A DNA stretch of 64,000 bases from Nitrospirota bacterium (GTDB lineage Bacteria > Nitrospirota > JACRHJ01): positions 1-64,000 of the forward strand of contig JACRHJ010000039.1 of assembly GCA_016212105.1 (NCBI GenBank). Direction: 5' to 3'. The notes under the pieces are model-generated. The model was not told the DNA's origin. It searched no databases and saw only the letters and a program-made list of their open reading frames with translations. The stretch's first letter is position 1; the number at the start of each line of letters is the position of its first letter. The position numbers and the translations under genes are program-made. Positions 14,269 through 36,696 of this stretch are shown here, one piece after another.

Positions 14269-15237
14269 CTACTTCAGGAACAGCAGGTTTCTGGCCATCT
14301 TGGAGAGGTTAATCTGTTTCACGAGAGTCTTGGTGGCCGCATCGAACACCAGGACGGATTTTGAGTCCTCGGCGCCGGGCGACACGAAGACTTGCCTGCC
14401 GTCAGGGCTGAAAAGTATGTCCTGGAATATATGCCCGCACCTTGTCTCAAGCCTTGCCAGTTCCTTGTTCTCGGCGAGCGAATAGACGGTCACGAACCCT
14501 TCCGGACCGCCATACCACATCTCCTTCCCGTCACCGGAAAAAGCAAGGCCGTCAATATTATCGGCGGACATACGGCCTGCCACCTCAAGCGTGGCGGCGT
14601 CAAGTATAACGATTTCCTGGTCCGCGACGCTCTTGAAATATATCATCTTCCCGTCCTTGGAGTATACGACCTCATATACCTCCCGGGGAACGCTGATCTC
14701 CCTGACCGGCACAAGGCCGTCCAGGTTGAAGACCTGCGCCTTGTCCTCGGCGTTTGTAACAATCACTGTCTTGCCGTCCGGTGATATTCTGACGCCCACG
14801 GGCATCTGGAGCGCCTTCGCCTTGTTTATTACCTTCATCGAGGCGGTGTCCACGACGGATATATCGCCTTTTTCCGAAGAGTCAATTACCACCAGGCGCC
14901 TGCCGTCCCGTGTTATGTCAAGCGCGTATGCCTTTTCGCCTGCCTTTACCTTGCCGACGACCTTTAACGAGGCCGTGTCTATCACCTGCACCTCGCCAGT
15001 GCCATATATCGCGGCGTAGACGCGCGCCCCGCCTTCATCGGCAACCAGCTCGGACGGCCTGTTCCCTGTCTGTATCTCTCCGGCGACCTCAAGGATATCC
15101 GCGTCCACCACCGTTATGCTGGAGTCGTGGTTGTTCGATACAAGGAGCCTCCCGCCCTCCGCGTGGGCCTGTGAGTGCGTTATGGCAAGCAGCAGCATTG
15201 CCGCGGCTGCGATTAATACATTGACGTCTATCCTCAT
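14269..15237 (-). CDS. Secreted YncE-like beta-propeller protein
   Basis: A 322-residue product with a Sec signal peptide (residues ~1-27, ending AHA) and about seven propeller blades. The repeats have the YVTN/YncE pattern DSSITVVDADILEVAGEI..G..P and VSPDG-like turns (RISPDGKTVIVTN, LFSPDGRQVFVSPG). Such propellers in the periplasm are associated with redox or metal-linked systems (for example NirF/YncE relatives) or act as interaction scaffolds; the exact ligand is unknown. The ATG at 15237 follows AGGAGG. It lies downstream of the giant cytochrome gene on the same strand, separated by two hairpins, so a role alongside the cytochromes is an inference from position. Confidence 0.82.
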   Translation of the reverse strand: MRIDVNVLIAAAAMLLLAITHSQAHAEGGRLLVSNNHDSSITVVDADILEVAGEIQTGNRPSELVADEGGARVYAAIYGTGEVQVIDTASLKVVGKVKAGEKAYALDITRDGRRLVVIDSSEKGDISVVDTASMKVINKAKALQMPVGVRISPDGKTVIVTNAEDKAQVFNLDGLVPVREISVPREVYEVVYSKDGKMIYFKSVADQEIVILDAATLEVAGRMSADNIDGLAFSGDGKEMWYGGPEGFVTVYSLAENKELARLETRCGHIFQDILFSPDGRQVFVSPGAEDSKSVLVFDAATKTLVKQINLSKMARNLLFLK

Positions 15238-15610: not shown

Positions 15611-18600
15611 TTACCAAGGCGTCTTGTTGTTCCAGCCGCCAGGATACATCGCGTTGCTGCCGTTCTGCGAGCCTATCTTCGTGCTGTGGCAGGCAACGTT
15701 CCTGAGCATGGCGCCCGGCAGGGTCGCGCCAGTCGTGCCGGGTACCGCCGTCTGGTTGTAGTACGCCATCGTCGTATGCGCCACGCCCACGTTGTCGTTG
15801 TCGAGGCAGTTGGTCTTCATCAGCCTCGGCAGCCTCGAAACGTGCGGCGTGTGGCACTTGGAGCACGGGAACCGGTGGTAAAACGCCTGCAAGGTGCCCG
15901 CCGTCTGCTGCGTCGTGCCGCTGACACCCCAACGGTAACGATGCATGATGTTCATCGGGCCGGAGGTCGGGTCTTGGTTCGTCTGGTCGCCAGCAGGAGT
16001 CCCGGGGCCCGGGGTCAAGCCGCCGTCGGTGCTGTTGTATGTCATGTTGTGCATGGCGAACATCGGTCGCTGCGTGGAGCCGGGGTTGACGTTACGAGCG
16101 AAGACGTCCACTGCTATCGTGCCCGCCGTCCCGTTGGCCATGCCGGCGACGGTCTCGTGCGGCTTCGGCTGCCTGCGTGCGGTGCCGGTGCCGAGGGTGC
16201 CGGTGGTCACGTTGAGCAGCGCGATACCCGAGTTCTTCTGCCATGCGTGGCACTGGAAGCACAGGCCAGCGAAGTTGCCCGCCCTGCCCGTTGCCGCGAC
16301 GACGGTCGACATCTTCTTGAAGCCCATGTTCTGGTTGTAGTTCTTGAGCGTCGTGGTGCCGAACGTGTTCTCGTCTATGTAGTAGCCGTTCCAGCCCTTG
16401 CGCGCTATTGCCGTCGCCGAGGTGTAGCCGTAGTACACGGCCTGGCCGCCACGGCCGAAGCCGTCGCCCTGCAGCAGCGGTATGTTGAAGCCAGGAACGT
16501 AGCTGCCGGTCCTGAAGTCCGGGTTGCCTCTCGGGGCCGGGGCGCCTACGTCCCTGTTGGTCGTGGTGCTGGACGTGCCGCCGACCGAGTCGTCCCAGAG
16601 CCTTCTGGCGGTGCTGAGCGCCGGGTTGTAGGTCGTGTAGTCGTCCGCGTTGGTCAGGCCAGTAAGCCTCGCGGTGCCGCCAGTGGTGTCGGTCGTGTAA
16701 TCGCTCCTCGGAGCGCGGTCCTCCTTGTACGGGGAGTGCATCCAGGTACCCTTGAGCGCGGGCACCATGTACGTCTCGTCAAGGCCGGCCTGCCAGGTCC
16801 ACGTGTCGTCCGCGGTGTATGTCGCGGCGGCCCAGGCAGCCGTGATGCCGTTGTTTACGTAGTCCGCGCTGGTCGTGGTCGTCGTGGCCCATGTCCTGCC
16901 GCCGTTTGCGGATGCGCGGTAGGTCGCCGTGCCCTTCGCGCCGCCCGCGACAATCTGGAGGACGTAGACCAGAGACTCGTTGGCCGGGCCTGAGTAGGTG
17001 CCCGAGAGTACGGGGCCGCCGACCGTCGCCCCGAACGTGCGGACCGGCATGGTGTAGTTGACCGTCGTGGCGACGCCGTGCGGGTCATGGCACTTGACGC
17101 ACTGTCCGCCAATCGCAGTGCCCGGCGTCCCGGACTGCAGGTAGCCGCGCGAGTTGCCGAAGTGGCCGCCCTTGAAGGTGCCGTCCTTGTACGGGAAGGT
17201 GCCGCGCCACGTGTCGGCAGTCGACCAGCGGGTCGCGTCCTCTGTGGTCCACGTCGTGCCGACGCGCTCGTAGTAGCCGAGTATCCTCTGGTTGCGCGCC
17301 ACGCCGTAGGACGAGTAGTTCTTCAGCGCCGACGCGTCGTCGCCCATATGGCAGTCGAAGCAGAGGTCGGCGTCCGCGGCGTAGACGTTCTTCGTGCCGG
17401 ACGAGCCGCCGCCAGCCGGGAGGTACTTCCTCGTCGTGGACCTGTTGATGAATATACCGCCCGCGGTGTTGCCGCTGGTGTACGACGTGCCGCCCGTGAC
17501 GGTCGAGCCGTGCGAGTTGTGGCAGTCGTAGCAGGACATGTTCTTCGTGGCGACCGCGTCCGCGCCGGTCGCGCCGATGGTCTCCGCGACCGTCACGACG
17601 CGCTCGTTGGCGGTCGCGTTGCCGTGCGGGCTGTACGCCTTGGCGACCAGGTCGGCCGGGACGACGTTGTACAGCTTGGAGTCGAACTTGCCCCAAGGCG
17701 TCGTGCCGGTGTTGCTCCACTTCGCGCCGACGGCGTTGTAGTCCCATGCGTAGGTGTTCGGGGTCCTCGTGTCGCTGAACGGTGTAGCCGCCTTGTTGGT
17801 GTCGTTATGACAGCCAAGGCAGTGCCTGGTCAGCGAGGAGTTGTTCCTGAACGCCTTGTAGTTGATGACGTTGTTTACCGTCGGGTACGTCCCGTACACG
17901 TTGAGGTCGATTGCCTGACCTGCGGTCTGCGTATGGTACGTACCGTTGATGGAGCCGTCAGGGTTGCCCTCCGCGTGGCACTTGGCGCAGTCGGCCGGGA
18001 CGATGGACGCCCAGCTGGCTACTATGTGGTGCGACGCCTTCTCGAAGTCCACCTGTATGCTGCGCCTGCCGTTGACCACGCCAGCGCCGCCGGTGCCGTG
18101 GCAGCCGGTGCATGAGCCCGCGCCCTTGAAGCCCTCGCTGTGGACCAGCGTCGAGGTATGGCAGTCGGTGCAGAGAGTGGTGCCGTTGTGCGCGGCGTTC
18201 GCCGAGCGGCTGAACACCACCGTCGAGTTCCTCCTGTGGCAGACCTGGCATATGCCGTCGTAGGTCGCCGTCACGAAGCTCGCCCTCGAAAGGCTCGCGG
18301 GCCTCGTCGTCTCCGCCGGGAAGTCCATGGCCTTCGTCAGGTAGCTGGCGGTCGGATACGGCGCGCCGTAAGCGTTGCTGCCCGTTGTGTAGTTGACGAA
18401 CGCCTGAACCATCATGTAGTTGCGCTGCGTGGTGTCGTTGCCGCCGTTGTCACCGTGCGGGTCGTGGCAGTCAACGCACTTGGGCGTGAAGAACCAGGTC
18501 GCGTACTTCGTCCCGCCTGTCAGCGCCTTCTCATGGTTCTTTATGGCCGGCGACGTGTGGCAGGTCGTCGCGCACAGGGTGTTCGGCGCGGTCGGCCTGA

Positions 18601-21600
18601 TTGTGGCCGAAGAGACGAGCCTGAACGGGTTGCCCGCCGCGTTGTGCGGTGTCGCGTTCCTGTGGCAGCCGCCGACGGTGTTGGAGGACGACGAGCTCTC
18701 GCAGGAGAGGTTCGCGCCCGCCTGTGCGGTGTACCTGTACGTGCCCTTCTTGCCGTGGCCGACGGAAGTGTACTCGTAGAAGTTCACCGTCGCCTTCGTC
18801 GCGTCGCCGTAGTTGAAGTTGTTCGTCTCCGCCGCCGTCACCTGGTGGCAGGTCTGGCAATCGGCAGTGCCGCCCCACCTCATGCTGCTCGTGCCGTGGC
18901 ATGCAACGTTGGTGTTGGAGCAGGTCTTGGTCGCCTGTGTGTAGGTGCCGCCCAGCGTGAACGACACGTTCCGGAAGCCGTTTATGTGCTTGCCGGTGGC
19001 CAGTATCGTCGTGCCGTCGGAGGCTACGGTGTTCGCGTGGCACTTGAAGCAGTCAGCGGCTACCGAGACGTGAGCTGTCACATAGTGGCTGTTGTTGGAG
19101 TTGCTGCCCGTCGTGGTGACGTTCGTGTACTCCGGGGCGCCTGCCACATAAGTCGTGCCCTCCGAGCCGTGGCAGTCGTCGCAGCCGTAGTTCGTGGCCG
19201 CCGTCCAGGCAGCCGTCGTGCGGAACGCCGGGGTCGCCTGGCCGGAGCTGTGGCAGTAGTTGTTACGGCAGGTCAGCGAGCCGGAGATTCCGCCGGTGTA
19301 GCTGTTGAACGCCGTGAACGAGACGTTCCTGCTGCCGTTGACGTGGTTCGAGTATGTGCTGACCGTCGTGTCGCCGCTCACGGTCATCTTGTGGCATGCC
19401 ACGCAGCCGAAGTTCGCCAGGTTGCCCGCGTTGACATGCTGCGCGTGCTTGTTGGTCGTCAGCGTGGTCTTGCCGCCGTGACAGGTCGTGCAGGTCACCG
19501 CCGCGCCGTTCCAGGTCGGGTTGACGTAGGAAGGCGTGCTCGTGCCGGAGCTGTGGCACCAGACGTTCGAGCAGGTGCCGTTCGTCCACTTGCGGTTGAC
19601 GTTGACCGGGTCGGACCCGGCAAGGGTGCCCGCGACGTAGCCCGGCGTCATGGTCGTGCCGAGCGCGGCGTCCATCTCCTTGTAGCGGAACGCGTTGCCG
19701 CCGTTGCCGTAGATCTTCGTCCTCCAGACCGTTGACGCAGAGTGGAATATGACCTCTGCGGCCTGGTTGGCCGAGACGTCGCCCTCACCGTGCGCGATGT
19801 TGGTGGCCGCATTGATGGTCGCATGGCAGACCTCGCAGGCGTACTTGTACGTGGTCGAGTCGCTGTGCTTCTTGTGCTTGCCTGTCGAGCTGTGGTTCGC
19901 CCACGTGCCCGCGCCCTGGTCGCTGTGGCAGCTCTGGCAGTCCGCGCCGAGAGCGCCGCCCCATCTCATGACGGCGGTGCCATGGCACGCGGTGTTCGAG
20001 CAGCGCTTCGTCGTGGCGTTGTAGGACCCGCCCTGTGTGAACGAGACGTTCCTGAACCCGTTCAGGTGTCTGCCGGTCGAGAGTATGTCGCTCGCCGCGG
20101 AGACCGAGTTCGCGTGGCAGTCGAAGCAGTCGGAGGAGTTCAGGACGTGCTTCTGGTGGCCGTTGAACGTGTTCCTGTTCGACGTGGACACGTTGGCGTA
20201 GTTCGGCTCGCCTGCGACCGCGGCCCAGCCGCCGTCCGCGCCATGACAGTCCGCACAGCCGTATGTCGTCGCGCTGTCCCATGCCGCCGTAGTCCTGAAG
20301 GTCGGGGTCGCCTGTCCGGAGCTGTGGCAGTAGTTGTTCCGGCATGTCTTCGTGCCGGTCATCGCGCCCGTGTAGGAATTGAACGACTTGAAGTAGACGT
20401 CCTTCGTCGCGTTCACGTGCTTGTTCGGGCTCATTATAACCGTGTTGTTGCCGAACGTGACCGTCCTGACGTGGCAGTCCACGCACCTGAACATCGCTAG
20501 GTCAACGTCGCCGGCGTTGTTGATGTGCTCCTTGTGCTTGCCGGTGATTATCTCGTTCGCGCCCGCCGTGTACTTGTGGCACGTGGTGCAGGTCACGGTG
20601 GTGCCCCATGCCACATCAGTGCCCGCCGCGCCGCCGGCGCCGTTGCTGTGGCAGTAGTTGCTGCGGCAGGTGTTGGTGCCGGTATATGCGCCGGTCATCG
20701 TGCCGAACGTCGGGAAGTTGACGTTCTTGGCGCCGTTGACGTGCCTCGACTTGTCACTCACGACAGTGTTGCTTGAAACTACGTGGTCGTGGCAACCCAT
20801 GCAGCCGATGCTGTACTTGTCGGTGCCGACGTGCTGCGGGTGCGAGCCGCCGAGCATCACGGCAGCCTTGACCGCCGGGCCGCCGTGGCAGGACGTGCAG
20901 GACACGGACGCGACGTTCCAGGCTATGGATACCGGCGTGCCGCGGCCGTTAGAGTGGCAGTAAGTGTTGCTGCAGGTGCCTGCCGTGTACTTGAAGCCCT
21001 GTGCGTCGGTTCCCATGAGCGCGCCGGCCACGTAGGACGCCGACCCGTTGGCCGGAGCGGACAGCGTGTCGAATGCCACCTCGGCCGCCTGGTCAGCGGA
21101 GACGAAGCCCTGCGCGTGGTGTATCGCCGAGCCGCCGTTCGGGGTGTGGCACTTGCCGCAGGCGAACCTGTACATCGTCGCCGTGGACTCGTTCTTCGCG
21201 CCGTTGAAGGTCGGCAGCGTGGTCGAGCTGAAGTGCGCGAAGTGCTGCGCGTACCTGGGCGGCGAGGCGTGGCAGGACGCGCAGTTCGTCGTGCCCGAAC
21301 CCCATACCGGCGAGTTGCCGGCGCCGTGGCAGGTCGTGGCGTTGCATACACCGCCGCTGTATACCGTCGTACCGGAAAGCTGGTACGCGGTGGCCACGGA
21401 GACGTCCTTGGCGCCGTTGACGTGCTTGGCGCTGAAGCCGGACGCGTTGACGAACGGCGAGACAGCGTCGCCGCCGGCCGTCTTCCTGTGGCATATGCTG
21501 CAGCCGATGTTGCCGTTAAGATGCTTGGCATGGCTGCCGGTGGTCAGCGTCGCCTTGTCGCCGTGGCAGGAGCCGCAGCCGTAGTTGCCGGCAACCGTCG

Positions 21601-24600
21601 TCCAGCTCGGGAACCTCTGCGGGTCGCCGCCGTTGCCGTTGGAATGGCATATGACGGTGCAGCTGTCGTTACCATTGTTGTACGAACCCCAGTAGCCGAG
21701 GTACGTGTTCTGGGACGTGTAGTTGACGAGTGTGCTGATACCCGACATGTTCATGTACGACACCCTGAAGAATATGTCCTTCTGGCCGTCGTTGTGCTCG
21801 GTCGGTACTGCGCCCCTGAGCGTCGTATTGGAAGCCGCCGTGGCCGAATGGCAGTTCAGGCAGCCGACCCTGGCGCCGTAGCCGCTGTTGGCTGCGGGCT
21901 TGAGGTGCTTGTTGTGATTGTAGGAAAGCGTCTGGGCCGCTGTCCTCACGCCGTCGCCCGCGGCGTAGTAGCTGTTGCTGTGGCAGCTGGTGCAGGTCGT
22001 GCCAACAACGCTGGACCAGTTCATCTGCACATAATAGACGCTGCCGGCATATGGGTTGCCGTTGAAGTGGCAGGCGACCGAGTTGCAGGTCTTGTTGGTG
22101 CTGTTGTATGTGCCGCCCCACTTGGCCGGGTCCATCGCCACATCGACGCCGCCGTCTACGTGGTTGGCCTTGTTGGAGATGCTGTTGAGCGTCGTCGTCG
22201 TGTTGTGGCAGTCGCCGCACGAGAAGGTGTACACCGAAGACCATACGTGCTTCGAGTGCTTGCCAGACGACATTTTGTTTGTGGCGGACAAGACGCCGTT
22301 ATGGCAGCCGTCGCAGTTGATGCCAAGCTCGGTGGACGTCCAGTTATACAATGTGTTGTTTGGCGCGCCGCCCTTACCGTCGCTGTGGCACTTGTTTGTG
22401 CACGTACCGGCCGTATAGTGCCAGCCGTTGCCGTCCGTCTTGGACACGCCAGGCGTGTACGTGCCGCCGGTGTTATTGTAGCTGTTAGTCACGTTAATCG
22501 TGTTGTGGTTGGCCTCGGCCGTCTGCACGCCGGGGTTGATCTCGCCGCCCGCATGGGTCCTGCTGAAGTGGCAGAACCGGCAGTCGAAGTCGTACTGGCC
22601 CGCGGTCGATTTGTTCGCGTTGACAGTCGATATGTTGCTGTGGTTGCCCGCATTATGCGCGTCGTGCGCACCGACGCCCGGGTTCGGGTTGGTCGGTGAC
22701 TGCCCGTGGCAGCTCCCGCATGTGACCGTTCCGCCCCAGGTCGGAGGCGCGGTCAGTCCGTGGCAGTACGTGTTGGCGCACTGCAGGTTGCTGTGGCTGT
22801 ACGTAGCGCCCGCGTTCTCCTCGTCGAAGCCGACGTCAGGCGTGCCGTCGACGTGAAGCGTCGGCTGGATTGACGTGTATATGCTCGCGCCGTCGTCCCT
22901 GGTGGTGTCGTGGTGACACTTGGAGCAGCCGAGGCCGTTGCTGTCTACGTGCACCTCATGGCTGTTCGGCCTGGACGAAAGGTTGGCGTAAGAAGGCATG
23001 CCGTCCGGACGGCTGGTGCCGTGACAGTAGTTGCAGGTCTTCGCGCCGCTCGCCCAGACAGGCTCCCTGTAGGTTGTCGCCCAGTAAGGCTCGCCGGCCG
23101 CGTTGAGAAGGCCGTTGGAATGGCAGTATACGCTGTAGCAGGTCTTCACCGCCGTCGAGTAACGGCCGAACTGCATCGTGTTGTCGTTCGGGTCAAATAC
23201 CGCGTCTACGTCGCCGTTGACATGGTGCGTCTTGTCGGTGATGGGTATCACGCCCGTCCCTGGGGCCTTGGGTCCGGTCGTGTGGTAGTGGCACTTGTAG
23301 CAGTCAAACCTGTAGGCGTAGTTTGCGGTGACGTGCTTCTTGTGCGAGCCGGTCGACTGCGCAGTGAACGGCGTGGTGTCCGCGTAGTTTCCGTCATGGC
23401 AGGCGCCGCAGAGCGACGCGCCGCCGACATCGATATAGCCGTCCTTCCACTGCGGGGACGGGTTGCTGCCGCCCGCATTGAGAGTGCTGCCGTGGCAGTA
23501 GGTGTTGGTACAGGACCGGTTGGTCGTGTAGTTGAAGCCCTGGCCGTCCATACGGCTCGAAATCGGGTAGAACGCTATCTGCGTGTAGCTGCCGAGCGGG
23601 TTCTTCGGGAAAGAGTTGCCGTCGAACGCGACCTGCGCGTCCCTGACGCCAAGCTGGACCGAGCCGTCGACGTGGCTGGTGTGCTTTGACTGGGTCAGGT
23701 CAACGGTGTGACACTTGCCGCAGGCAAAGCCGTATTCCGTCGGGGTGTTCTGGAGGAGCGTGGTGTTCGCCTTCGGCGCCTCCGGCGTCGCGTTGATGAT
23801 AATGAAGTCGAGCGCGGTCGGCACTGAGCCGTTACCGATCTGGATCATCAGGTTATTGCCGCCGGTTATAAGGACTTCATGGTCGACGACCTTCTTGTAG
23901 AGCTTCTCGGGAAGCGTCTGGAAGTTATCCAGAAGCGCGTCCCACGTCGTGCCGCCGTTGCCGGACACCTTAACGGTCTGGCCGGACAGGCCGCCGGTGC
24001 CGCCAGATGCCGAGTCGCCAACGCAGACGGTGATGTACCACATGCCGTCAGGCAGCGTGAAGGTCTCCGTCGCGTTTGTCGAGCTGATGAACGTTGAGTA
24101 GCGCTCGTCCTCGTTGCCGCCGGACGCGCGTATGTTGCCCCTGTCGACCGCAGTGACCGAGCCGATCCATGCGGAGCCGTCGTCGTTGGTGTAGCCGCTG
24201 ACCTGCTGTGCGCCCGGGCCGAAGTTGACGTAGTGCTGGCCGGGGTGGTAGTGCTTGACGTGGCGGCCGGTCGCGGGCGGCGTCTCATGGCAGTACTCGC
24301 CGCAGACTATGCCCTCGAGGCCCCACCTGGGCGACGAGAGTCCCGCGCCGTGGCAGTACGTGTTCTGGCAGTAGCCGGTCATCTGCTTGTATGCGACGCC
24401 GGAAGAGTAGTTCTTGTACTTGTAGACGATGGTCGTCTCCATGAAGAACGTGCCGCCGGTGCTGGAAATACGTTCGGACTCGTTGCCGATCTTGCCGGGG
24501 CCGTTCAGGTCGATCTGGTCGTTCTGGTGCGTGAACTTGTACAGCGTGGTGTTGTTCCTCCACACCTCGCCGTTCGCGTGGCAGACGTTGCACTGCGAAG

Positions 24601-27034
24601 CGTCGCCGCCGCCCGCGTGTATCGGGAGGTAGTGCGCGCCGATGTTACCGGTGCCGCGCGGGTGCGCGCCGGGCAGGTCGTCGTCAGGAGGCATGAGGTG
24701 GCACTGGTTGCATGCGCTTATCTCGGGGTTGCAGAGCGTCGTCGCGTCCGGGCTGTTCGAGACGGGTGACGTGTTCTGGGACTCGTCAGCGACCTTGATA
24801 GCGAAATAATACTGGGTCATCGGCGCAAGGCCGGCTACCAGGTAGCTCTGCGTTGTGCCGGAGGGAAGCGGCTGCGGCAGGTTTGCGCCAACCGTGTGCC
24901 ATGCGTTGTCCCAATCGGTCTCCGTGATTATCGGGCTGTTCGAGTAACGTATCTCATAAGCCGTCGCGTTGCCGGTGATGCCGTCGTCGCCGGTGGCCTC
25001 CCACTGCAGGGTCACGTTGAACGCCTCGACGCTGCCAGGGATGACCCTGAGGCCGGTCGTTACGCCGTCTCCAGTGACAGCGTCAGGCGCTGTCACGTCG
25101 TGCGGGACGGCATAATAACTGGTCTCGAGCGGCGCGCTGACGTTTTTGGCCGTCTCGTCGTCATATGACCATATCGTATAGAAGTATGGGGTGCCGTTGA
25201 CCCTGTTCGTGTGCAGGAACGTGTCGGTAACGCCGGGCGTGCCGCCAAGCTTGTCGCCGGCCAGGTACGAGCCGTCCGAGCCGTCGTATGCAGTCGGCCA
25301 GCTGTCCGTCTTGTACCTGATCCTTACTCCCGCGAAGTCGCAGTCGTCAGGGTTGTTCCAGACCACCTCGACCTCCTGGTTGCCCTCGTTGAAGCCGGCG
25401 TTCGCCTGCGAGAAGGTCGGGGCGACCGTGTCGACGGGGGTGGTGGTGGCGTTGCCCAGCTGCAAGCCCGCGGAGTAGTTGAGCAGGTTGTCGAAGGTGA
25501 ATACCTTGTAGTAGTAAAGCTGTCCGTTCACCAGCCTCTGCGCCGGCACGCACGGGTCGCCGTTGACAAATGTCGTGCCTAACGATGTGTCGTAGAGGAC
25601 GACGTTGCTCGTGCCTATGGTGTTCGGACCGCCGACTCCGTACGGGTCGTATACCTGGCCCATCGTGGGAGTCTGCGTGATCGGCTGCGTGTTCCTGAGT
25701 ATCAGTACGCCATTGAAGTCCGCGTCTCCGGGGTTCGTCCAGGAGAGCGAGTTCCTGTTGTCGGTCGGCGTCGAGGAAAGCCCTGACACCTCGGCCGGCG
25801 GTGTGACGTCGCCAAGCATCGTGAAGTTGGAGGAGGCCGCGAAGTTTACTACCTGCGTCACAATTGACGTGTTTGTCGAAGCGGCGCTGACGTACAGCCT
25901 GTACTTGCCAGGCGCGGGTATCGTGATGGTCGAACGCCACGCGCCGTTCGAATAGGCCATCGCGGTGCCGTTCCACTGCGTCGTGGTAGTGCCGTCGTAG
26001 TTGTCGGCCTCGGTCACGCGGCAGGTCCATGTGTATGTACCACTCGTCTGCTCGGTGCCAAGGTAGTTATATATCCTGACCGCGACGTTGTAGGAGAACG
26101 TCGTCCCGGACGGGTTCGCGCACTTCCTGAGGTTCGTGCTGGTGGCGACGTCCTCCGGGAGGAGTTCCATCCAGTGGCAGTTCGGGTGCGTTGACGTAAG
26201 GACCGGAGCCGCCGCGTCGGAATACCACTGGGCGCGGGTGTCGAGCGCGCCCATTATCCCGGAGTCCGCGCTGCCCACACCAGGCGCGGCCTCGGCGGCC
26301 ACGCCGCCGTAGCTGTTGACGCTGGTAAGGCGGAGGTAGTACGTGCGGTTGTCGGTCGAGGTCGTCGTGTACGTCCTGGAATATACGGCGGCGCCGAAGG
26401 TGCCGTCCGTGCCGAACGCCCAGTCCGTCGTGTTTATGTTCACAGCGTTCCAGATGGCCGTCCAGGTCGTTGCGCCCGTGTTCCTGCGATAGAGCCTTGC
26501 CGTGATATACGACGTCGGGGCCCTCAGGTCGGTCGTGACGACGTTGCCTTCCCTGTCCAGCACCCTGAACTTGAACGTGACTGCGCCGCCGACCGGGAGT
26601 ATGGTGCCCCTGACGGGCGAAAGTATCTCTATCCGGCCGCCGTCGAGGAAGCGCGGGTTGTGGTACATCCTGACCTGCCAGCTGCCGGCCTTGTCAGTCG
26701 CCTGCGTCGCGTAGGAGCTGGTGCCGACGCCCGATGCGTCGGTCGCCGCCGGGCTCTGCTGGACCCACTTGACCAGGTCTGTGCCGTCGTCCACCGACGG
26801 TCCCCAGTATTCCGCGACATACGCCTTTGATGCGAGACCGGCGGTCATCTTGGTGTAGACGGTGTCAACGCCGCGACCGAACTCAGTCTTTGACGTCAAA
26901 TACGTGTTGCTGGAATAAGTGCCCACAGCGGCGGCGGCGTAGGCTATCAAAGCCCAGAGCAGCACCCCCATTACCATGGTCAGCACCGCGGCGGTGACCA
27001 CCCTGCCGGTTTTCATCTTTGTCATCTTCTCCAT
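15611..27034 (-). CDS. Giant secreted multiheme c-type cytochrome (3807 aa, about 41 CXXCH)
   Basis: One uninterrupted ORF of 3807 codons. An N-terminal hydrophobic signal or anchor (residues ~10-36) is followed by ~740 heme-free residues, including three fibronectin-III-like modules (about 407-535, 536-645, 646-775, each opening with a DxxxP-type motif). The heme region runs from about 777 to 3725. I count 41 CXXCH sites, interleaved with about 4 CX3CH, 12 CX4CH and one CX6CH. The alternating CX4CH...W...CXXCH pattern is that of the Geobacter CxxxxCH...CXXCH family. A carbohydrate-binding-like beta module (FTLPDGMWYITVCVGDSA...) sits at about 936-1081. The ATG at 27034 follows GGAG. The likely location is outside the inner membrane, with a role in long-range or extracellular electron transfer. 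The acceptor is unknown. Confidence 0.93.
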   Translation of the reverse strand: MEKMTKMKTGRVVTAAVLTMVMGVLLWALIAYAAAAVGTYSSNTYLTSKTEFGRGVDTVYTKMTAGLASKAYVAEYWGPSVDDGTDLVKWVQQSPAATDASGVGTSSYATQATDKAGSWQVRMYHNPRFLDGGRIEILSPVRGTILPVGGAVTFKFRVLDREGNVVTTDLRAPTSYITARLYRRNTGATTWTAIWNAVNINTTDWAFGTDGTFGAAVYSRTYTTTSTDNRTYYLRLTSVNSYGGVAAEAAPGVGSADSGIMGALDTRAQWYSDAAAPVLTSTHPNCHWMELLPEDVATSTNLRKCANPSGTTFSYNVAVRIYNYLGTEQTSGTYTWTCRVTEADNYDGTTTTQWNGTAMAYSNGAWRSTITIPAPGKYRLYVSAASTNTSIVTQVVNFAASSNFTMLGDVTPPAEVSGLSSTPTDNRNSLSWTNPGDADFNGVLILRNTQPITQTPTMGQVYDPYGVGGPNTIGTSNVVLYDTSLGTTFVNGDPCVPAQRLVNGQLYYYKVFTFDNLLNYSAGLQLGNATTTPVDTVAPTFSQANAGFNEGNQEVEVVWNNPDDCDFAGVRIRYKTDSWPTAYDGSDGSYLAGDKLGGTPGVTDTFLHTNRVNGTPYFYTIWSYDDETAKNVSAPLETSYYAVPHDVTAPDAVTGDGVTTGLRVIPGSVEAFNVTLQWEATGDDGITGNATAYEIRYSNSPIITETDWDNAWHTVGANLPQPLPSGTTQSYLVAGLAPMTQYYFAIKVADESQNTSPVSNSPDATTLCNPEISACNQCHLMPPDDDLPGAHPRGTGNIGAHYLPIHAGGGDASQCNVCHANGEVWRNNTTLYKFTHQNDQIDLNGPGKIGNESERISSTGGTFFMETTIVYKYKNYSSGVAYKQMTGYCQNTYCHGAGLSSPRWGLEGIVCGEYCHETPPATGRHVKHYHPGQHYVNFGPGAQQVSGYTNDDGSAWIGSVTAVDRGNIRASGGNEDERYSTFISSTNATETFTLPDGMWYITVCVGDSASGGTGGLSGQTVKVSGNGGTTWDALLDNFQTLPEKLYKKVVDHEVLITGGNNLMIQIGNGSVPTALDFIIINATPEAPKANTTLLQNTPTEYGFACGKCHTVDLTQSKHTSHVDGSVQLGVRDAQVAFDGNSFPKNPLGSYTQIAFYPISSRMDGQGFNYTTNRSCTNTYCHGSTLNAGGSNPSPQWKDGYIDVGGASLCGACHDGNYADTTPFTAQSTGSHKKHVTANYAYRFDCYKCHYHTTGPKAPGTGVIPITDKTHHVNGDVDAVFDPNDNTMQFGRYSTAVKTCYSVYCHSNGLLNAAGEPYWATTYREPVWASGAKTCNYCHGTSRPDGMPSYANLSSRPNSHEVHVDSNGLGCSKCHHDTTRDDGASIYTSIQPTLHVDGTPDVGFDEENAGATYSHSNLQCANTYCHGLTAPPTWGGTVTCGSCHGQSPTNPNPGVGAHDAHNAGNHSNISTVNANKSTAGQYDFDCRFCHFSRTHAGGEINPGVQTAEANHNTINVTNSYNNTGGTYTPGVSKTDGNGWHYTAGTCTNKCHSDGKGGAPNNTLYNWTSTELGINCDGCHNGVLSATNKMSSGKHSKHVWSSVYTFSCGDCHNTTTTLNSISNKANHVDGGVDVAMDPAKWGGTYNSTNKTCNSVACHFNGNPYAGSVYYVQMNWSSVVGTTCTSCHSNSYYAAGDGVRTAAQTLSYNHNKHLKPAANSGYGARVGCLNCHSATAASNTTLRGAVPTEHNDGQKDIFFRVSYMNMSGISTLVNYTSQNTYLGYWGSYNNGNDSCTVICHSNGNGGDPQRFPSWTTVAGNYGCGSCHGDKATLTTGSHAKHLNGNIGCSICHRKTAGGDAVSPFVNASGFSAKHVNGAKDVSVATAYQLSGTTVYSGGVCNATTCHGAGNSPVWGSGTTNCASCHASPPRYAQHFAHFSSTTLPTFNGAKNESTATMYRFACGKCHTPNGGSAIHHAQGFVSADQAAEVAFDTLSAPANGSASYVAGALMGTDAQGFKYTAGTCSNTYCHSNGRGTPVSIAWNVASVSCTSCHGGPAVKAAVMLGGSHPQHVGTDKYSIGCMGCHDHVVSSNTVVSDKSRHVNGAKNVNFPTFGTMTGAYTGTNTCRSNYCHSNGAGGAAGTDVAWGTTVTCTTCHKYTAGANEIITGKHKEHINNAGDVDLAMFRCVDCHVRTVTFGNNTVIMSPNKHVNATKDVYFKSFNSYTGAMTGTKTCRNNYCHSSGQATPTFRTTAAWDSATTYGCADCHGADGGWAAVAGEPNYANVSTSNRNTFNGHQKHVLNSSDCFDCHANSVSAASDILSTGRHLNGFRNVSFTQGGSYNATTKRCSNTACHGTAVMRWGGALGADCQSCHSDQGAGTWANHSSTGKHKKHSDSTTYKYACEVCHATINAATNIAHGEGDVSANQAAEVIFHSASTVWRTKIYGNGGNAFRYKEMDAALGTTMTPGYVAGTLAGSDPVNVNRKWTNGTCSNVWCHSSGTSTPSYVNPTWNGAAVTCTTCHGGKTTLTTNKHAQHVNAGNLANFGCVACHKMTVSGDTTVSTYSNHVNGSRNVSFTAFNSYTGGISGSLTCRNNYCHSSGQATPAFRTTAAWTAATNYGCDDCHGSEGTTYVAGAPEYTNVTTTGSNSNNSHYVTAHVSVAADCFKCHANTVASDGTTILATGKHINGFRNVSFTLGGTYTQATKTCSNTNVACHGTSSMRWGGTADCQTCHQVTAAETNNFNYGDATKATVNFYEYTSVGHGKKGTYRYTAQAGANLSCESSSSSNTVGGCHRNATPHNAAGNPFRLVSSATIRPTAPNTLCATTCHTSPAIKNHEKALTGGTKYATWFFTPKCVDCHDPHGDNGGNDTTQRNYMMVQAFVNYTTGSNAYGAPYPTASYLTKAMDFPAETTRPASLSRASFVTATYDGICQVCHRRNSTVVFSRSANAAHNGTTLCTDCHTSTLVHSEGFKGAGSCTGCHGTGGAGVVNGRRSIQVDFEKASHHIVASWASIVPADCAKCHAEGNPDGSINGTYHTQTAGQAIDLNVYGTYPTVNNVINYKAFRNNSSLTRHCLGCHNDTNKAATPFSDTRTPNTYAWDYNAVGAKWSNTGTTPWGKFDSKLYNVVPADLVAKAYSPHGNATANERVVTVAETIGATGADAVATKNMSCYDCHNSHGSTVTGGTSYTSGNTAGGIFINRSTTRKYLPAGGGSSGTKNVYAADADLCFDCHMGDDASALKNYSSYGVARNQRILGYYERVGTTWTTEDATRWSTADTWRGTFPYKDGTFKGGHFGNSRGYLQSGTPGTAIGGQCVKCHDPHGVATTVNYTMPVRTFGATVGGPVLSGTYSGPANESLVYVLQIVAGGAKGTATYRASANGGRTWATTTTTSADYVNNGITAAWAAATYTADDTWTWQAGLDETYMVPALKGTWMHSPYKEDRAPRSDYTTDTTGGTARLTGLTNADDYTTYNPALSTARRLWDDSVGGTSSTTTNRDVGAPAPRGNPDFRTGSYVPGFNIPLLQGDGFGRGGQAVYYGYTSATAIARKGWNGYYIDENTFGTTTLKNYNQNMGFKKMSTVVAATGRAGNFAGLCFQCHAWQKNSGIALLNVTTGTLGTGTARRQPKPHETVAGMANGTAGTIAVDVFARNVNPGSTQRPMFAMHNMTYNSTDGGLTPGPGTPAGDQTNQDPTSGPMNIMHRYRWGVSGTTQQTAGTLQAFYHRFPCSKCHTPHVSRLPRLMKTNCLDNDNVGVAHTTMAYYNQTAVPGTTGATLPGAMLRNVACHSTKIGSQNGSNAMYPGGWNNKTPW
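18845..19273 (-). repeat. Internal duplicated segment of the giant cytochrome, copy 2
   Basis: About 143 codons from TCRNNYCHSSGQATP to CQTCH match copy 1 (19924-20347) in order and in most residues, including TTAAW, DCFxCHAN, GFRNVSFT.GG and the C-terminal RWGG. They share four heme-type motifs each. Confidence 0.8.
19924..20347 (-). repeat. Internal duplicated segment of the giant cytochrome, copy 1
   Basis: The partner of 18845-19273, about 1.08 kb away. The section between them also resembles the section before copy 1 (both contain VSANQAAEV..., followed by CSN-type CX4CH and CTxCHGG), which suggests duplication of a unit of about 360 codons. Confidence 0.75.
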
Positions 27035-27229: not shown

Positions 27230-27259
27230 ATCATAAATCGTCTGGTGCGGTTATGTCAA
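27230..27259 (-). promoter_or_regulatory. Sigma70-type promoter for the giant cytochrome transcript
   Basis: TTGACA (27259-27254), an 18-base spacer, and TATGAT (27235-27230) on the minus strand. The leader of roughly 190 bases includes the 30-codon ORF. The promoter lies after the hairpin that ends the preceding cytochrome gene. Confidence 0.65.
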
Positions 27260-27349: not shown

Positions 27350-28960
27350 TTAGTGGAGCGGCTCACAGTCCCAGTTCTGGGAGGCGCCGTAGTGGCACTT
27401 GACGTCGCTGCAGCTCCTGGTCGTCAGGTTGTAGTACGACGTGCGGTTGTTGAACCAGTAGTCCGGGTGCACCCCGACGTTCACGTTCGCCCTGATGACC
27501 ACCCTCTCGCTCACGTTGTGGTGGTTGGCCGCGTTGCCGTCGCCGCCGCCGTCGTAATGGCAGGAGCGGCAGGCGTAGCCGCGCTTGGTGACGTGAGTAT
27601 AGTGGGCGCCGCCGCCGCCAGAGTAGTCCTCGAAGGACCTGAAGTTGGCGGTCCAGTTGGCATAGCCGGGCGCGCCTGAACCGACGTTGACGCCGTTCTG
27701 TTTGCCGTGGCAGGCATCGCACGACTCCTCGGTCCAGTCGCCGCTGACCATGAGTGTATGGCAGTATACGTTGGAACAGGTCTTCGTGCCAGTGTTAAAT
27801 GACGGCGGGTTGATATCGTCGCGGCCTATTCCGTTGTTTCTCCAGAGCATGTAGACCCTGGCGTTCTGGGACTTGACCGGGAGCGAGATGACGCCGGAGC
27901 CGGCCTCGCCGAGGGTCGAGTGGTTATGGAAGCCGCGCGCGCCATAGGTGGTGTCCGGGGTCCTGTGACAGTCGTCGCAGTAGATGTTCCTGTCCTCGCT
28001 CTGGAAGTTCCACGGGTTCAGCTTGTACTTGAACATGTGAGCCTCGTGGCGCTTGTTCGCGTTCTTGCTCAGGAAGCTCGTGGCGTGTCCAAAGGTCGCC
28101 GACTGGCTCGGCGTGCTGTGGCACTCGTTGCACTTGAGGTCCGTGTCGCCCCAGGCCGCGGACTGGTAGGTGCCGAACCGCTCCCTCTGGCCCGGCTTGA
28201 AGATGATGGTGTAGTTGCCGAACGGGTCGGTCGGGTTGTAGTGGCAAGACAGAGAGCAGGTGCCGAGGTTCGGGTCGGTGGCGTGCTTGCTGTACCCTAT
28301 ACCGGTGACGTTGACGTATGTGTGCGCCTCGGACATGTCCGCCTTCTTTGCGAAGGCCGGCGTGTTGATGTGCGTCAGGCCGGTGTCGCCGTCGTTGTTC
28401 GGGTGGCAGTGAACGCAAGTGATGGTCTCGCTCGTGTTGACCTTGATCGGTGAGCTGTAATGCTTGAACGACTTGTCGTTCGTCACGTGCAGGCCGGACA
28501 TGGCGTAGTTGCCGGTCGCGCCGTGCCTGAAGTGGCAGAGGTTGCAGTTGCCGCTGTCGCCCCAGACCGGGTTCGCTATATTGTCGTGGCAGGCGTTCGC
28601 GCAGGTCGAGTTCCCGCTGTTGTAGGACAGGCCGGGCGCCACGACCGACGTGATGTTGACCACGTTGTTGTTGTGGCCCGCCGTCGGGTGTCCGGGCGCG
28701 GCCACAGCTGGGTGGCAGCGTTCGCATGTGGTCAGGTCCGCTCCACTTGCATGCTGCGGGTGGCTTTTTGTAGTCTGCTTGCAGCCACCGTTGTCTGCGT
28801 CAGCCGGCGGGTTGCTGTGGCACTGTCCGCAGCTGATGGTAGCGGCTAGGGCTGTTGAGGGCCCCGCAATGCCGCCGAAGAGTGCCAGCCCGAGTATGAG
28901 GGCAAGCATCACCACCGGCAACCCCCACCTTCCGCCCTTAGTCTTGTTGACATATTCCAT
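27350..28960 (-). CDS. Multiheme c-type cytochrome (about 8 CXXCH plus 4 expanded sites)
   Basis: A 536-residue product with a Sec signal or anchor (hydrophobic segment ~14-40, ending ALAATISCGQCH). I count eight CXXCH motifs (CGQCH, CERCH, CNLCH, CVHCH, CNECH, CDDCH, CDACH, CRSCH), two CX3CH (CANACH, CSLSCH) and two CX4CH (CSNVYCH, CSDVKCH). This is the same alternating family as its neighbours. The ATG at 28960 follows AAGGAGG; a longer frame adds 31 residues including two Cys and is rejected for lack of a ribosome binding site. It is probably a periplasmic or surface electron carrier. It lies between the giant cytochrome and a 478-residue cytochrome on the same strand. Confidence 0.88.
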   Translation of the reverse strand: MEYVNKTKGGRWGLPVVMLALILGLALFGGIAGPSTALAATISCGQCHSNPPADADNGGCKQTTKSHPQHASGADLTTCERCHPAVAAPGHPTAGHNNNVVNITSVVAPGLSYNSGNSTCANACHDNIANPVWGDSGNCNLCHFRHGATGNYAMSGLHVTNDKSFKHYSSPIKVNTSETITCVHCHPNNDGDTGLTHINTPAFAKKADMSEAHTYVNVTGIGYSKHATDPNLGTCSLSCHYNPTDPFGNYTIIFKPGQRERFGTYQSAAWGDTDLKCNECHSTPSQSATFGHATSFLSKNANKRHEAHMFKYKLNPWNFQSEDRNIYCDDCHRTPDTTYGARGFHNHSTLGEAGSGVISLPVKSQNARVYMLWRNNGIGRDDINPPSFNTGTKTCSNVYCHTLMVSGDWTEESCDACHGKQNGVNVGSGAPGYANWTANFRSFEDYSGGGGAHYTHVTKRGYACRSCHYDGGGDGNAANHHNVSERVVIRANVNVGVHPDYWFNNRTSYYNLTTRSCSDVKCHYGASQNWDCEPLH

Positions 28961-29118
28961 TTTATCCTCCTTGAAGATAGAAACCGTAAACTGAAAAATG
29001 CTGTAAAGGGTTTGTTGTTTTTCTCTGTGCTTCTGACAGAGCATGCAAGGCACGTCCAGTTGTCGTCCGCCTTAAGGTCCGCCCTCTTGCATGGCCTGTT
29101 AGGAACACAGACTTCCTG

Positions 29119-29164: not shown

Positions 29165-30601
29165 CTACCACCAGTTCGGGGTGGTCTTGCCGCTGTGGCA
29201 CTTCACGTTCGAGCAGGTCGCGTCAGAACCCGGAGTCGTGACGGTTATGCTGAAGTTGCCGCCGCAGTTGCCGTTGCCGTTGCCGGCGACGTCAGCCGTG
29301 CCGTTCCTGTGCGTACCGCCGCTGTGGCAGGTGTTGCAGGAGCCGCCAACGCCGACCTGAGTCGCATAGGCGGTCGAGCCGGAGGCGTCGAAGCCGGAGG
29401 CCTTCAGGTGCGTGTTGACGACAGGCGCGTCGTACCTGACATAGTGGCCGTTGCCAGCCGCCCAGTCCTTGCCGGCGACAGTCGGGTAGTTGTGGCATAT
29501 CGCGCAGGACGGTATGGACGACGGGTTGCCCCACGCCGGCGTGGTGTTGCCGTTACCGTGGCAGGCAGCGCCGTTCGAGGAGAACGTGCAGGTGTTCGCG
29601 CCGTCGTTGTAGCTCAGGCCGGTGCGGGTAACGGTCGCGTTGTCCTGGACGGTCGGCAGGGCCGAGGCGTGCGCCGTGTCGCCGGCACCCGGGACGGTGT
29701 GGCAGTCGGAGCAGACCGCGCCCTGGTCGAAGTGCGCATTGTGGCTGCCGCCGAGGTTGCCGGTGCCGGTGTTGTTGGCGCTGGCCGGTACTGCCTCCTG
29801 ATAGTGGCAGCTGTTGCAGGTCATGCTCTGGCCCCACTGTATGGTCGCCGAACGCGGGTGGCAGGAGGAGGCGCAGGTGTCGGTCGAGCCGGCGCCCCTG
29901 GAGGCGCTCAGGCCGGCGTCGAGCGAGGCATTGTCGGAGACGACGTTGGTGCCGTCCGCGGCGTGCGAGTACGCCTTGGCGGTACCGGCGTCCACGCCGG
30001 CAACCTTGCTCCAGTCGTTGACGTTGTTCGGGTGGCAGGCGTCGCAGTCCGCGTTCGTGCCGGCGCCGAGGCCGGTTACGGTGACGGTCGTGTCGAGGTG
30101 CTTGCCGTGCGCGCCGGACAGGTTGTTCGCCGCTGCGGCGCTGTCATCGTGGCAGCTGTTGCAGGAGAGCTGTATCGAGGCCGAGGTGTAGTTGCCCCAC
30201 TTCGCGGTCGCCGCCTCGTTCTTGTGGCAGGCGTTGGTGCAGGTCGCGGTCGCGGTCGTGTAGTCGAGGCCCGGGGCCGTTGCCGTGGACGTGACGTTTA
30301 CGTAGTTGTTGTTGTGCGACGTGGACGGCGCCTTTGTAGCTGTGGCGGTGTGGCAGTAGCCGCACTTGCCGTAGCTGGCGACGGTCTTCGGCATGCTGGC
30401 CGAGGAGTAGTTCACGTGGACGCCGTGCAGTCCGCGGCCGGTGTTGGCGCAGTTGTCAGCGTTGACCGGAAGCGGATCGTCTGTCGCCGCGGTGCCGTGG
30501 CAGTCGCCGCATGCGATCGTTGCCGCGGAGGCCATGCCCGCGAAGCCGAGTGTCATAACGGTCGCCAGGACCACCATGAACATCATCTTGAATTTACTCA
30601 T
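29165..30601 (-). CDS. Multiheme c-type cytochrome ending in TTPNWW
   Basis: A 478-residue product. The signal peptide (MSKFKMMFMVVLATVM...ASA) is cleaved just before ATIACGDCH. I count eight CXXCH, two CX3CH (CTNACH, CASSCH) and one CX4CH (CSNVKCH). A CX8CH variant (CTFSSNGAACH) also occurs. The C-terminal segment (TVTTPGSDATCSNVKCHSGKTTPNWW) is almost repeated at the end of the next cytochrome upstream (30778-32826), marking them as paralogues. The ATG at 30601 follows AGGAGG perfectly. It is likely cotranscribed with the upstream paralogue, since no strong terminator separates them. Role: periplasmic or extracellular electron transfer, partner unknown. Confidence 0.88.
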   Translation of the reverse strand: MSKFKMMFMVVLATVMTLGFAGMASAATIACGDCHGTAATDDPLPVNADNCANTGRGLHGVHVNYSSASMPKTVASYGKCGYCHTATATKAPSTSHNNNYVNVTSTATAPGLDYTTATATCTNACHKNEAATAKWGNYTSASIQLSCNSCHDDSAAAANNLSGAHGKHLDTTVTVTGLGAGTNADCDACHPNNVNDWSKVAGVDAGTAKAYSHAADGTNVVSDNASLDAGLSASRGAGSTDTCASSCHPRSATIQWGQSMTCNSCHYQEAVPASANNTGTGNLGGSHNAHFDQGAVCSDCHTVPGAGDTAHASALPTVQDNATVTRTGLSYNDGANTCTFSSNGAACHGNGNTTPAWGNPSSIPSCAICHNYPTVAGKDWAAGNGHYVRYDAPVVNTHLKASGFDASGSTAYATQVGVGGSCNTCHSGGTHRNGTADVAGNGNGNCGGNFSITVTTPGSDATCSNVKCHSGKTTPNWW

Positions 30602-30777
30602 TATTTCCTCCTGTTTTGGCGGCTTACGCCGCAATGTCAACTAATTTGACGTTTAAGCCTATTTTCTTACCGGTAAAGCCTCTCACCATCTCGTTCTTGC
30701 TGTAAGGTGTTGGTATTTAGTTACCAGCCTCCTCTCCCTTAACTAAGCTATATGTTAAATATCTTCCTACCGTTTAT

Positions 30778-32826
30778 TTAGTACCAGTTCGGCGTCGTCC
30801 CGCCGGAGCCGTGGCATGCCACGTTGCTGCAGGTCACGTCAGAACCGGTCGTCGTCACAGTAAGGGTGAACTCGCCGCCGCATGCGCCGAGCCCGTCGCC
30901 CGGGGCACAGTCCTTCAAGCCGTTCTTGTGCTTGTCAAGCGTGTTGTTGTGGCACTTGCCGCACATCCAGCCGGCCTGTCCGTAGGTCGTGTACGCCGCG
31001 TATATCGCGTTGCCCGCCCTCTTGAGGTGGGCGGTCGTCGCGCCGTCGAACATCACCGCATGCGCGTTGGTAGCCGGCGGGTAGCCGTGGCAGGAGTCGC
31101 AGCCGCCGCCGCCAGCCCAGGTCCTGGTACCGGTCGCCGGCGTGTGGCAGGAGACGTTGGAGCAGGTGTCGTCGGCCGTGTTGGCCTTGCCTATGGTGCC
31201 GTTGTCGGAGAACGTGCCGCCGCCCCAGGTCGAGGTGTCTATGCCGGCGGTGTTCTTGTTGGTGTTGTGGTCGCCCCTCGTGCCGCCGCCGTTGCCGTGG
31301 CAGCGGTCGCAAACGGCCGCCCCGCTGAGGTTGAACGGCGCGCCCTCGAGGTATATCTTGTGCGCGTGGTGCGCGTCTCCTGTAGTGTCGGCCCAGCCGG
31401 TCGGGCCCGCCTTTCCTGAATCCGGCGGGAAGCCGTGGCAGCTGCCGCAGTCGCCGCCCGCAGCGAAGCCAGCCGCATGGGAGTGGCAGGCGGTGCAGTT
31501 CGCGCCGGCGTTGTGGCCGGTGCCCGTGCCGTCCGCCTTGTGGTAGTTGGTGGCCGCGTGGCAGGCCTCGCAGACCGAAGAGCCGGTGTCGTTGCCGAAG
31601 CTGTTCGAGCCCGTGAAGTTGAGGAAGTTGACCCTCTTGCCGTTGATGACTTCCTTGATAAGCATTATGTTGTTCGTGTTGTGGCCGGTGTGGCAGTCGT
31701 TGCAGACCGTCGGCGAGGTATGCTTCCCGCCGTTGTGGTTCCCGAGGAGCGCCTGCGTGCTGTAGCCGTCGAAGCCGTTGACCTTGTGGCAGTCGGTGCA
31801 GATGTCAGAGCCGCCGTTGCCAGCGTTCCTGAGCATCGAGCCGGTGTTGCTCGGGGCGTTGTGCGGGTCGTGGCAGGAGGTGCAGAGGATGTTGCCACCC
31901 TCAAGGTATATGTTCGCGTCCGGCGTGGCCTTGAGCGTGTCGTTGAGGCCCTGTGTGTGGCCATATGCGAGTATCGCCGGATGGTTGTCCTTGGAGCCAT
32001 CGCCCGGGGCGTGCGAGACCGCGCTGTCGTTCCTGTTATTGTGGCAGTCGAGGCAGAGTGCGTTCGCCGTGTTGCCCGCGCGCATGTACGGCTGGAGTAT
32101 GTCGATATATATGAAGCTTGTGCCCTGGGAAGCCGAGAAGGTCACCATTGCTGTCGCATAGTCGTAGGTGTACAGCGAGGGAGAGACCAGGTACGTGTTC
32201 TTGGTGCGCGAGTTAGTCGGCCTGGTGGTCGACACGGTGTTCTTGTATACCTTGACATACTGCGCGAGGTGCTGGGAGGTGCTGGTGTAGCCGGTGATAC
32301 GATAGTTCATGTGGTCGCCCTGGTCGAGGCCCGCGACCCAGTCTATGTTCTGGTCGCCGGAGGTGGCCTTCTCCATCGCGTCGTGGCAGGTCTGGCAGCC
32401 GGCCTTGCCGTTGTCCATGTAGCCGACCAGCGTGGCGAGTGTCGGGGTGCGGGTGCCGGCGTTGCCGTTCGCGCCGTTCCAGCTGTGGGACGTACCCTTG
32501 TAGGAGCCTGGGACGAGGGTCGTCTGGCCGCTGTACACGTTGGTGGACGGCGAGCCGGCCGACTTGTTGTGCGCCTCGCCGGCCACGTTGTGGCATGTCA
32601 CGCAGAAGTCGTTGTAGTCCTTCTCGTTTGGCGCGATTGTCTTGTCGAGGGTGCTGGGCAGGAACGTGCCCTTTGTGATGGAGTGGCACGCGCTCGCCGT
32701 ATTACTACAGCCCCCAGCATAGCCCGTGCGGTAATCAATGTGTGGTCCGTTCACCGCCCCGGCGATGCCATAGGCTCCCGCCAAAACCACCAGCGCGACT
32801 ATCACACTCAATAAGGTCCTTTTCAT
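30778..32826 (-). CDS. Multiheme c-type cytochrome (about 12 CXXCH plus 3 expanded sites)
   Basis: A 682-residue product. The signal peptide (MKRTLLSVIVALVVLAGAYGIAGA) is followed by HIDYRTGYAGGC. I count twelve CXXCH motifs, two CX4CH (CSNVSCH, CSNVACH) and one CX6CH (CSNTASACH). A heme-poor stretch at about 150-245 separates the N-terminal sites from a denser C-terminal part with CHDPH and CHGFPPD motifs. It ends GGTTPNWY like its paralogue. The ATG at 32826 is preferred because AAGGCGG lies at better spacing than for the GTG at 32832. It is the first gene of the cytochrome run on this strand. Confidence 0.88.
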   Translation of the reverse strand: MKRTLLSVIVALVVLAGAYGIAGAVNGPHIDYRTGYAGGCSNTASACHSITKGTFLPSTLDKTIAPNEKDYNDFCVTCHNVAGEAHNKSAGSPSTNVYSGQTTLVPGSYKGTSHSWNGANGNAGTRTPTLATLVGYMDNGKAGCQTCHDAMEKATSGDQNIDWVAGLDQGDHMNYRITGYTSTSQHLAQYVKVYKNTVSTTRPTNSRTKNTYLVSPSLYTYDYATAMVTFSASQGTSFIYIDILQPYMRAGNTANALCLDCHNNRNDSAVSHAPGDGSKDNHPAILAYGHTQGLNDTLKATPDANIYLEGGNILCTSCHDPHNAPSNTGSMLRNAGNGGSDICTDCHKVNGFDGYSTQALLGNHNGGKHTSPTVCNDCHTGHNTNNIMLIKEVINGKRVNFLNFTGSNSFGNDTGSSVCEACHAATNYHKADGTGTGHNAGANCTACHSHAAGFAAGGDCGSCHGFPPDSGKAGPTGWADTTGDAHHAHKIYLEGAPFNLSGAAVCDRCHGNGGGTRGDHNTNKNTAGIDTSTWGGGTFSDNGTIGKANTADDTCSNVSCHTPATGTRTWAGGGGCDSCHGYPPATNAHAVMFDGATTAHLKRAGNAIYAAYTTYGQAGWMCGKCHNNTLDKHKNGLKDCAPGDGLGACGGEFTLTVTTTGSDVTCSNVACHGSGGTTPNWY

Positions 32827-32832
32827 ATCCAC

Positions 32833-36667: not shown

Positions 36668-36696
36668 TACCACCAGGTATTATAAGTGCTCTTGTC

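Follow-up and report, generated by a model that had tools for sequence, protein, structure and literature searches.

A 3807-residue multiheme cytochrome of a Nitrospirota bacterium that looks like a fusion of a triheme array protein and a cap protein

Gene content of the cytochrome cluster

The window analysed here comprises 64,000 nucleotides at the beginning of contig C24 in a Nitrospirota draft genome of 61 contigs (3.05 Mb, 93.8% complete). On the minus strand of the window, a frame of 3807 aa (15611 to 27034) with an ATG start and zero internal stops encodes a giant multiheme cytochrome with 58 CX2-6CH motifs, one CX11CH and a terminal CX38CH. A ribosome-binding-like AGAAGGAG was found ahead of the ATG, and a promoter-like TTGACA-18-TATGAT on the same strand (27230 to 27259) matched the consensus at 11 of 12 positions, a consensus match only. 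Motif scanning identified three further array cytochromes upstream, all on the minus strand and all stopping after a CX4CH. With E for CX3-6CH and c for CXXCH, the nearest (27350 to 29053, 567 aa) carries 12 motifs as (ccE)4, followed by proteins of 491 aa with 11 motifs (29165 to 30640, ending ..TPNWW) and 684 aa with 15 motifs (30778 to 32832, ending ..TPNWY). Including the giant, the four cytochromes add up to 96 CX2-6CH motifs. Beyond them on the minus strand lie a LuxR-type response regulator (33307 to 33984), identified by domain scan and kept in place in the sister genus, and a histidine kinase with dCache and GAF domains (33989 to 36673), which is likely the sensor for the cytochrome cluster. 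Downstream of the giant gene, the domain scan identified a YVTN-type beta-propeller protein (14269 to 15237, minus strand) without a match in the cluster of the sister genus.

A scan of the genes between 11.7 and 46 kb found no outer-membrane porin in the cluster; a Porin_O_P gene located at 49879-51342 is grouped with acetate genes. The cytochromes of the genome were surveyed via family searches, and MtrB/PioB-like matches were located elsewhere in the genome (C32:4-1836, C42:18004-18546 and C55:87708-88718), as were ResB-type cytochrome c maturation genes, so that the genome has both a trans-membrane route and a means of attaching heme. The MtrB/PioB-like genes, two of which are at contig ends, adjoin 10-motif cytochromes and represent a separate outer-membrane conduit. 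At 39456-46195, two large TPR proteins (1138 and 1105 aa) lie side by side, of which the second contains glucodextranase-B-like domains; neither shows any visible relation to the cytochromes.

Motif content and N-terminal parts of the giant cytochrome

A preliminary description of this DNA had reported a single uninterrupted ORF of 3807 codons with about 41 CXXCH and about 17 expanded motifs, spanning residues ~777 to ~3725. The frame was confirmed without any stop, and the automatic count gave exactly 41 CXXCH and 17 expanded motifs (4 CX3CH, 12 CX4CH and 1 CX6CH). The first CXXCH lies at residue 775 and the last at 3724. In addition to these 58 CX2-6CH, residue 2778 bears a CX11CH. The plus strand over the same span contains 18 stops and no CX2-12CH. 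The GC3 was 0.83-0.92 across all 1-kb in-frame slices, and this flat course along the gene excludes a hidden frameshift.

A Sec-type signal peptide was read by eye at about residues 1-33 (26936 to 27034, with a putative cleavage site); no lipobox was seen in it. By this signal peptide the giant is a predicted exported protein. The signal peptide is followed by a heme-free region (residues 34-774; 24713 to 26935) that is possibly Ig-like and shows a weak fn3 match at residues 673-752, below the Pfam cut-off. The motifs begin with an irregular entry section (23513 to 24712), defined by the positions of five motifs at residues 775, 815, 889, 911 and 1105. All of these parts are on the minus strand, as are the array and cap below.

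The triheme array

The motif order defined a triheme array at residues 1175-2725 (18860 to 23512), made up of 13 complete units of the form CX3-6CH/CXXCH/CXXCH and closed by a CX6CH at residue 2705. Over residues 1175-2713, the motifs follow an E c c period of three with 0 exceptions over 40 motifs, which rules out a simple one-to-one alternation. The preliminary description had assigned the protein to an alternating CxxxxCH/CXXCH family; the family held, as TIGR01904 matched 15 stretches of the giant (E 4.3e-102; 334 bits against a cut-off of 27), and the alternation gave way to the three-heme repeat. PF09698 scored 87.6 bits against a cut-off of 21.7, and PF14522 (c7) was also above its cut-off.

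The units of the giant are ~115 aa long, ranging from about 100 to 143. An alignment of 62 units from seven proteins of five genomes showed that C30, H31, C51, C54, H55, H69, C86, C89 and H90 were invariant, and that C25, W45, H72 and H108 were conserved at ≥90%. The positions conserved at ≥90% are thus the nine motif residues, the Trp after CX4CH and three non-motif His (HxxH, HVNG), and each unit in the window has at least three non-motif His. Free His makes up 3.24% of the array versus 0.79% of the heme-free N-terminus. This His stoichiometry is as would be expected if every heme were bis-His coordinated. Read from HxxH, the unit order is HxxH, CXXCH, H, CX4CH, W, CXXCH. Modelling of a five-unit array piece with AlphaFold2 (42 rows) produced a mean pLDDT of 45.8, too low for the model to be used.

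The C-terminal cap

The C-terminal cap (residues 2726-3807; 15614 to 18859) starts with ccE and continues with CXXCH motifs. It is conserved to the Geobacteraceae, and the module is common to many Geobacteraceae, Desulfuromonadales and other MAGs (56 loci). The preliminary description had overlooked both the cap as a separate part and the array/cap organisation of the genes. The second c of the cap start is the CX11CH (residues 2778-2791; 18662 to 18703). The same position is a plain CXXCH in the orthologue and most relatives, so that the motif was opened by a 9-residue insertion; the widened heme motif is kept in a paralogue.

Across 40 proteins the end of the cap is nearly invariant and reads CxKCHxPHxxxLPRLMxTNCLD, 20-94 variable residues, CH and WNxxTPW. 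In the giant it contains C3743-x38-C3782-H3783 (15686 to 15808), a candidate very expanded heme motif with a spacing of x20-94 in the 40 relatives, and the conserved C-terminus GGWNNKTPW (15614 to 15640). The lone Cys and terminal CH may together serve as a very expanded heme site or, alternatively, be joined by a disulfide. The CX14CH loop of OmcZ is comparable on a smaller scale (PMC11208441). AlphaFold2 on the cap (44 rows) produced a mean pLDDT of 41.5 and was fairly confident only at residues ~2972-3140; Foldseek with this model returned no match.

Relatives in the sister genus, the genome and the phylum

The closest relative of the genome was 'Nitrospirae bacterium isolate DBS2-1.bin100' (JAJYHX010000001.1). 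The preliminary description had linked the motif family to Geobacter-like metal reducers; with a 'Nitrospirae bacterium' MAG as its nearest named relative, the genome is not Geobacter-like. The syntenic orthologue of the giant in this sister genome is 2904 aa long and lies inside a contig of 622,901 bases, where the gene order is that of the window: TPR, HEAT, M29, response regulator, four array cytochromes, the 2904-aa giant, TPR lipoprotein and xseA. It shares 54% identity with the giant over the C-terminal 1108 aa. Its motifs number 24 CXXCH and 5 expanded, so that the heme number differs greatly between the two copies.

A second array cluster of the window's genome (L009, G000:C29:55000-74500) encodes proteins of 553, 2000 and 2184 aa and is a split paralogue of the last two genes of the cluster in the window. 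The 2000-aa protein (C29-2000) contains a four-unit block repeated at 60-74% identity; by sequence, arrays grow via duplication of multi-unit blocks. A protein cut by a contig edge and at least 2066 aa long (L037, G000:C14:1-6203) combines 14 RCC1 and 13 thrombospondin type 3 repeats with a cytochrome cap that is 71% identical to that of the giant. As RCC1 propellers and thrombospondin type 3 repeats stand there in place of a heme array, the cap is portable. On contig C3 of the same genome (L010/L049), neighbouring frames of 4204 aa with 44 CXXCH and 1884 aa with 41 were observed; in these giants the CXXCH motifs come in pairs and do not form the triheme lattice.

The array unit was found at E <1e-12 in 25 of 148 sampled genomes of the phylum. 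Among the matches listed for these 148 genomes the window ORF was the longest, followed by 2904, 2811 and 2761 aa, and among all relatives examined its 58 motifs compare with a next-highest number of 51.

Split and fused forms of array and cap

Other members of the phylum often encode array and cap in two neighbouring genes. In this split form the array protein ends right past its CX4CH and the cap opens with the next two CXXCH. Many array cytochromes end no more than 20 residues past the last motif, usually CX4CH, and were termed open-ended. In 22 of 35 short-tailed array cytochromes the last motif was E, a class that makes up 22% of all motifs. At cap-selected loci, a same-strand multiheme gene came next after 26 of 29 open-ended proteins versus 3 of 46 cap proteins (Fisher 1e-13, the cases being not independent as the loci are related and partly cap-selected). 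Because these loci had been chosen by the cap, the rule was rechecked on 20 regions for which the array unit was the sole selection criterion. There, 7 of 8 canonical CX4CH-ended proteins with room downstream were followed by a cytochrome starting CXXCH-CXXCH-CX4CH (L122, with 2076 aa, L130, L132, L133, L134, L135 and L136). No multiheme gene was found downstream at L131 or at the differently ended L123 and L129, and the same was true for two of three Ec-ended array proteins.

The split array of L133 aligned to residues 1172-2720 of the giant and its separate cap to residues 2811-3384, while the split arrays of L134 and C29-2000 each gave one alignment ending at residue 2720, a position past the final CX6CH (2705) and short of the following CXXCH (2726). 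In the giant of the window, an array protein and a cap protein appear to have been fused exactly at this E/cc step. Such a fusion is a classic sign that the separate forms touch at that step, and the split pieces probably dock at the E/cc join. The separate caps examined had their own signal-like N-terminus, as judged by eye, which would bring array and cap together outside the cytoplasm.

All 20 CX4CH-ended proteins retained the His before their last motif, and no partner CXXCH follows in cis. Many partner proteins have a CXXCH a few residues past the signal peptide with no His ahead of it. The orphan His and the His-less starts together suggest that the His may be donated in trans. The proposed donation resembles OmcS, in which one axial His is supplied by the neighbour subunit (PMC6584659).

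Comparison with known multiheme cytochromes

The giant shares the motif pair of the CxxxxCH/CxxCH domain cytochromes (TIGR01904/PF09698, 'GSu_C4xC__C2xCH'), with its 15 stretches above cut-off. The curated domain, however, covers the CX4CH-CXXCH pair only, whereas the unit of the giant comprises three heme motifs and three candidate distal His, is present in 13 complete copies and is fused to a cap. Serial triheme domains in one chain are known from GSU1996, which has four (PMC10138318) and belongs with GSU2210 to the monomeric 'nanowires of hemes' with 12 and 27 hemes. TIGR04257 (nanowire_3heme) did not match the giant.

The units and the c7 genes of the same genome have the order HxxH, heme, ligand, heme, heme in common. 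The units are longer (~115 aa versus ~70), their middle heme site is a CX4CH, and the place that we take to hold the third ligand is occupied by His in the giant and by Met in the c7 genes. The hhalign comparison with these c7 domains gave a probability of 40% over 23 columns covering HxxH-CXXCH only, and no c7 chains were present among the PDB sequence matches. The likeness to c7 appears to be one of layout rather than proven homology.

The preliminary description had measured the protein against the six hemes of OmcS and the eight of OmcZ. This was the wrong yardstick, as proteins with 27-34 hemes in Geobacter metallireducens (PMC10989804), bacterial proteins with 45 and 49 hemes (PMC7399161) and an ANME-2c protein with 86 heme sites (PMC9012536) have been published; by the last of these, the giant is not the overall record in heme number. 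OmcS and OmcZ resemble the giant in proposed function, as bis-His heme chains for long-range transfer, and are polymers of 6- or 8-heme subunits. Membership in their sequence families was rejected, because phmmer and profile searches against solved structures in the PDB found no match for the full protein, the cap or the tail.

The large Geobacter cytochromes of the OmcN type or with 27-34 hemes (Gmet_0581, Gmet_0571, Gmet_2470) are, like the giant, very large multiheme proteins, predicted to lie on the outer surface, but have fewer hemes; the likeness to OmcN is by description only. Gmet_0581 contains an Ig-like domain and is required for some DIET partners (PMC10989804). Geobacteraceae genomes also hold array-plus-cap relatives of the giant. 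The giant S-layer cytochromes of ANME, with 20-86 hemes, have a comparable or larger heme number per polypeptide (PMC9012536), but they are archaeal and contain S-layer and peptidase-M6-like domains, both absent from the giant: the Pfam scan detected no S-layer domain, and the C-terminus is the polar GGWNNKTPW. The cluster does not match a porin-cytochrome conduit (Mtr/Pcc), whose mark is an outer-membrane porin gene in the cluster.

Proposed function and alternative explanations

From its sequence, we consider the giant to be an exported electron-conducting protein, the fused form of an array and a cap kept separate in many relatives, with a probability of about two in three. Each unit would bind three hemes, with one His ligand of each heme coming from the heme motif and the second from among the three extra His (HxxH, HVNG); the ligands would follow the same order as in triheme c7. 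The array would fold as a heme chain along which electrons hop from end to end, with the cap as the terminal contact. At the spacing of OmcS (4.8 nm per 6 hemes), 58 hemes would by extrapolation span ~46 nm; the wire of tens of nanometres suggested in the preliminary description is likewise an extrapolation. The upstream cytochromes ending on a CX4CH half-unit would dock head to tail on proteins starting with two CXXCH, and the operon with its 96 motifs may build one composite conductor for extracellular electron transfer. We infer that the cluster is a regulated extracellular electron-transfer system. Known filament structures are built of small subunits; at issue here are the organisation of giant cytochromes and a wire made of a single polypeptide. 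The triheme unit, open ends, cap and fused or split forms provide a sequence grammar that makes the wire question testable. The array/cap architecture is shared by Geobacteraceae, Nitrospirota and other lineages, and provides a modular building block for protein electronics.

Instead of a conductor, the giant could be an electron store in the periplasm or on the surface, with hemes on a flexible chain and without one continuous path. Such roles have been proposed for GSU1996 (PMC10138318), the varying unit length (101-143 aa) would suit loosely tethered domains, and the cluster is without a porin. However, the CX4CH-to-CXXCH step with its conserved Trp continues through successive units and over the array/cap join, and this speaks for continuous packing; the cap, moreover, is well conserved. 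A store is considered unlikely. Still less credit is given to a surface adhesin or scaffold with structural or partly empty heme sites, whose main task would be contact with minerals or partner cells. The 740 heme-free N-terminal residues with their weak fn3 match would fit such a role, as would the C14 paralogue, in which the same cap is combined with RCC1 propellers and thrombospondin type 3 repeats. Conservation is, however, highest at the motif and distal-His residues of units that are otherwise only 25-60% alike, and we regard this role as improbable.

Mis-assembly or fused frames could also have enlarged the ORF, given the known risk that repeats pose to assembly, the draft state of the genome (61 contigs) and a paralogue cut at a contig end. 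The protein sequences of the giant's units, however, are no more than 60% alike, so that reads would not collapse and repeat collapse or expansion is unlikely. Paralogous genes of 2000 and 2184 aa are present on contig C29. The locus is syntenic in the sister genus, with an orthologue 54% identical over the 1108 C-terminal residues, and the GC3 is uniform. The preliminary description had named an assembly error as what would overturn its reading, and the synteny and uniform GC3 contradict one; of the explanations weighed, an artefact is the least credible.

Within the preferred reading of the giant as a conductor, a more specific and tentative proposal, which we hold to be rather doubtful, is that head-to-tail complementation builds multi-gene heme wires. 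The spare HVNG His of a half-unit would ligate the first heme of the next protein, the cap would end the wire with its last heme held by a Cys 20-94 residues from the CH, and the protein of the window would be a natural fusion revealing the rule. In the open-licence literature, no paper describing the fused/split grammar or the terminal motif was found, and both may be new. If the proposal is true, the Cys-x20-94-CH of the cap would be a heme-attachment motif far longer than CX14CH or CX15CH.
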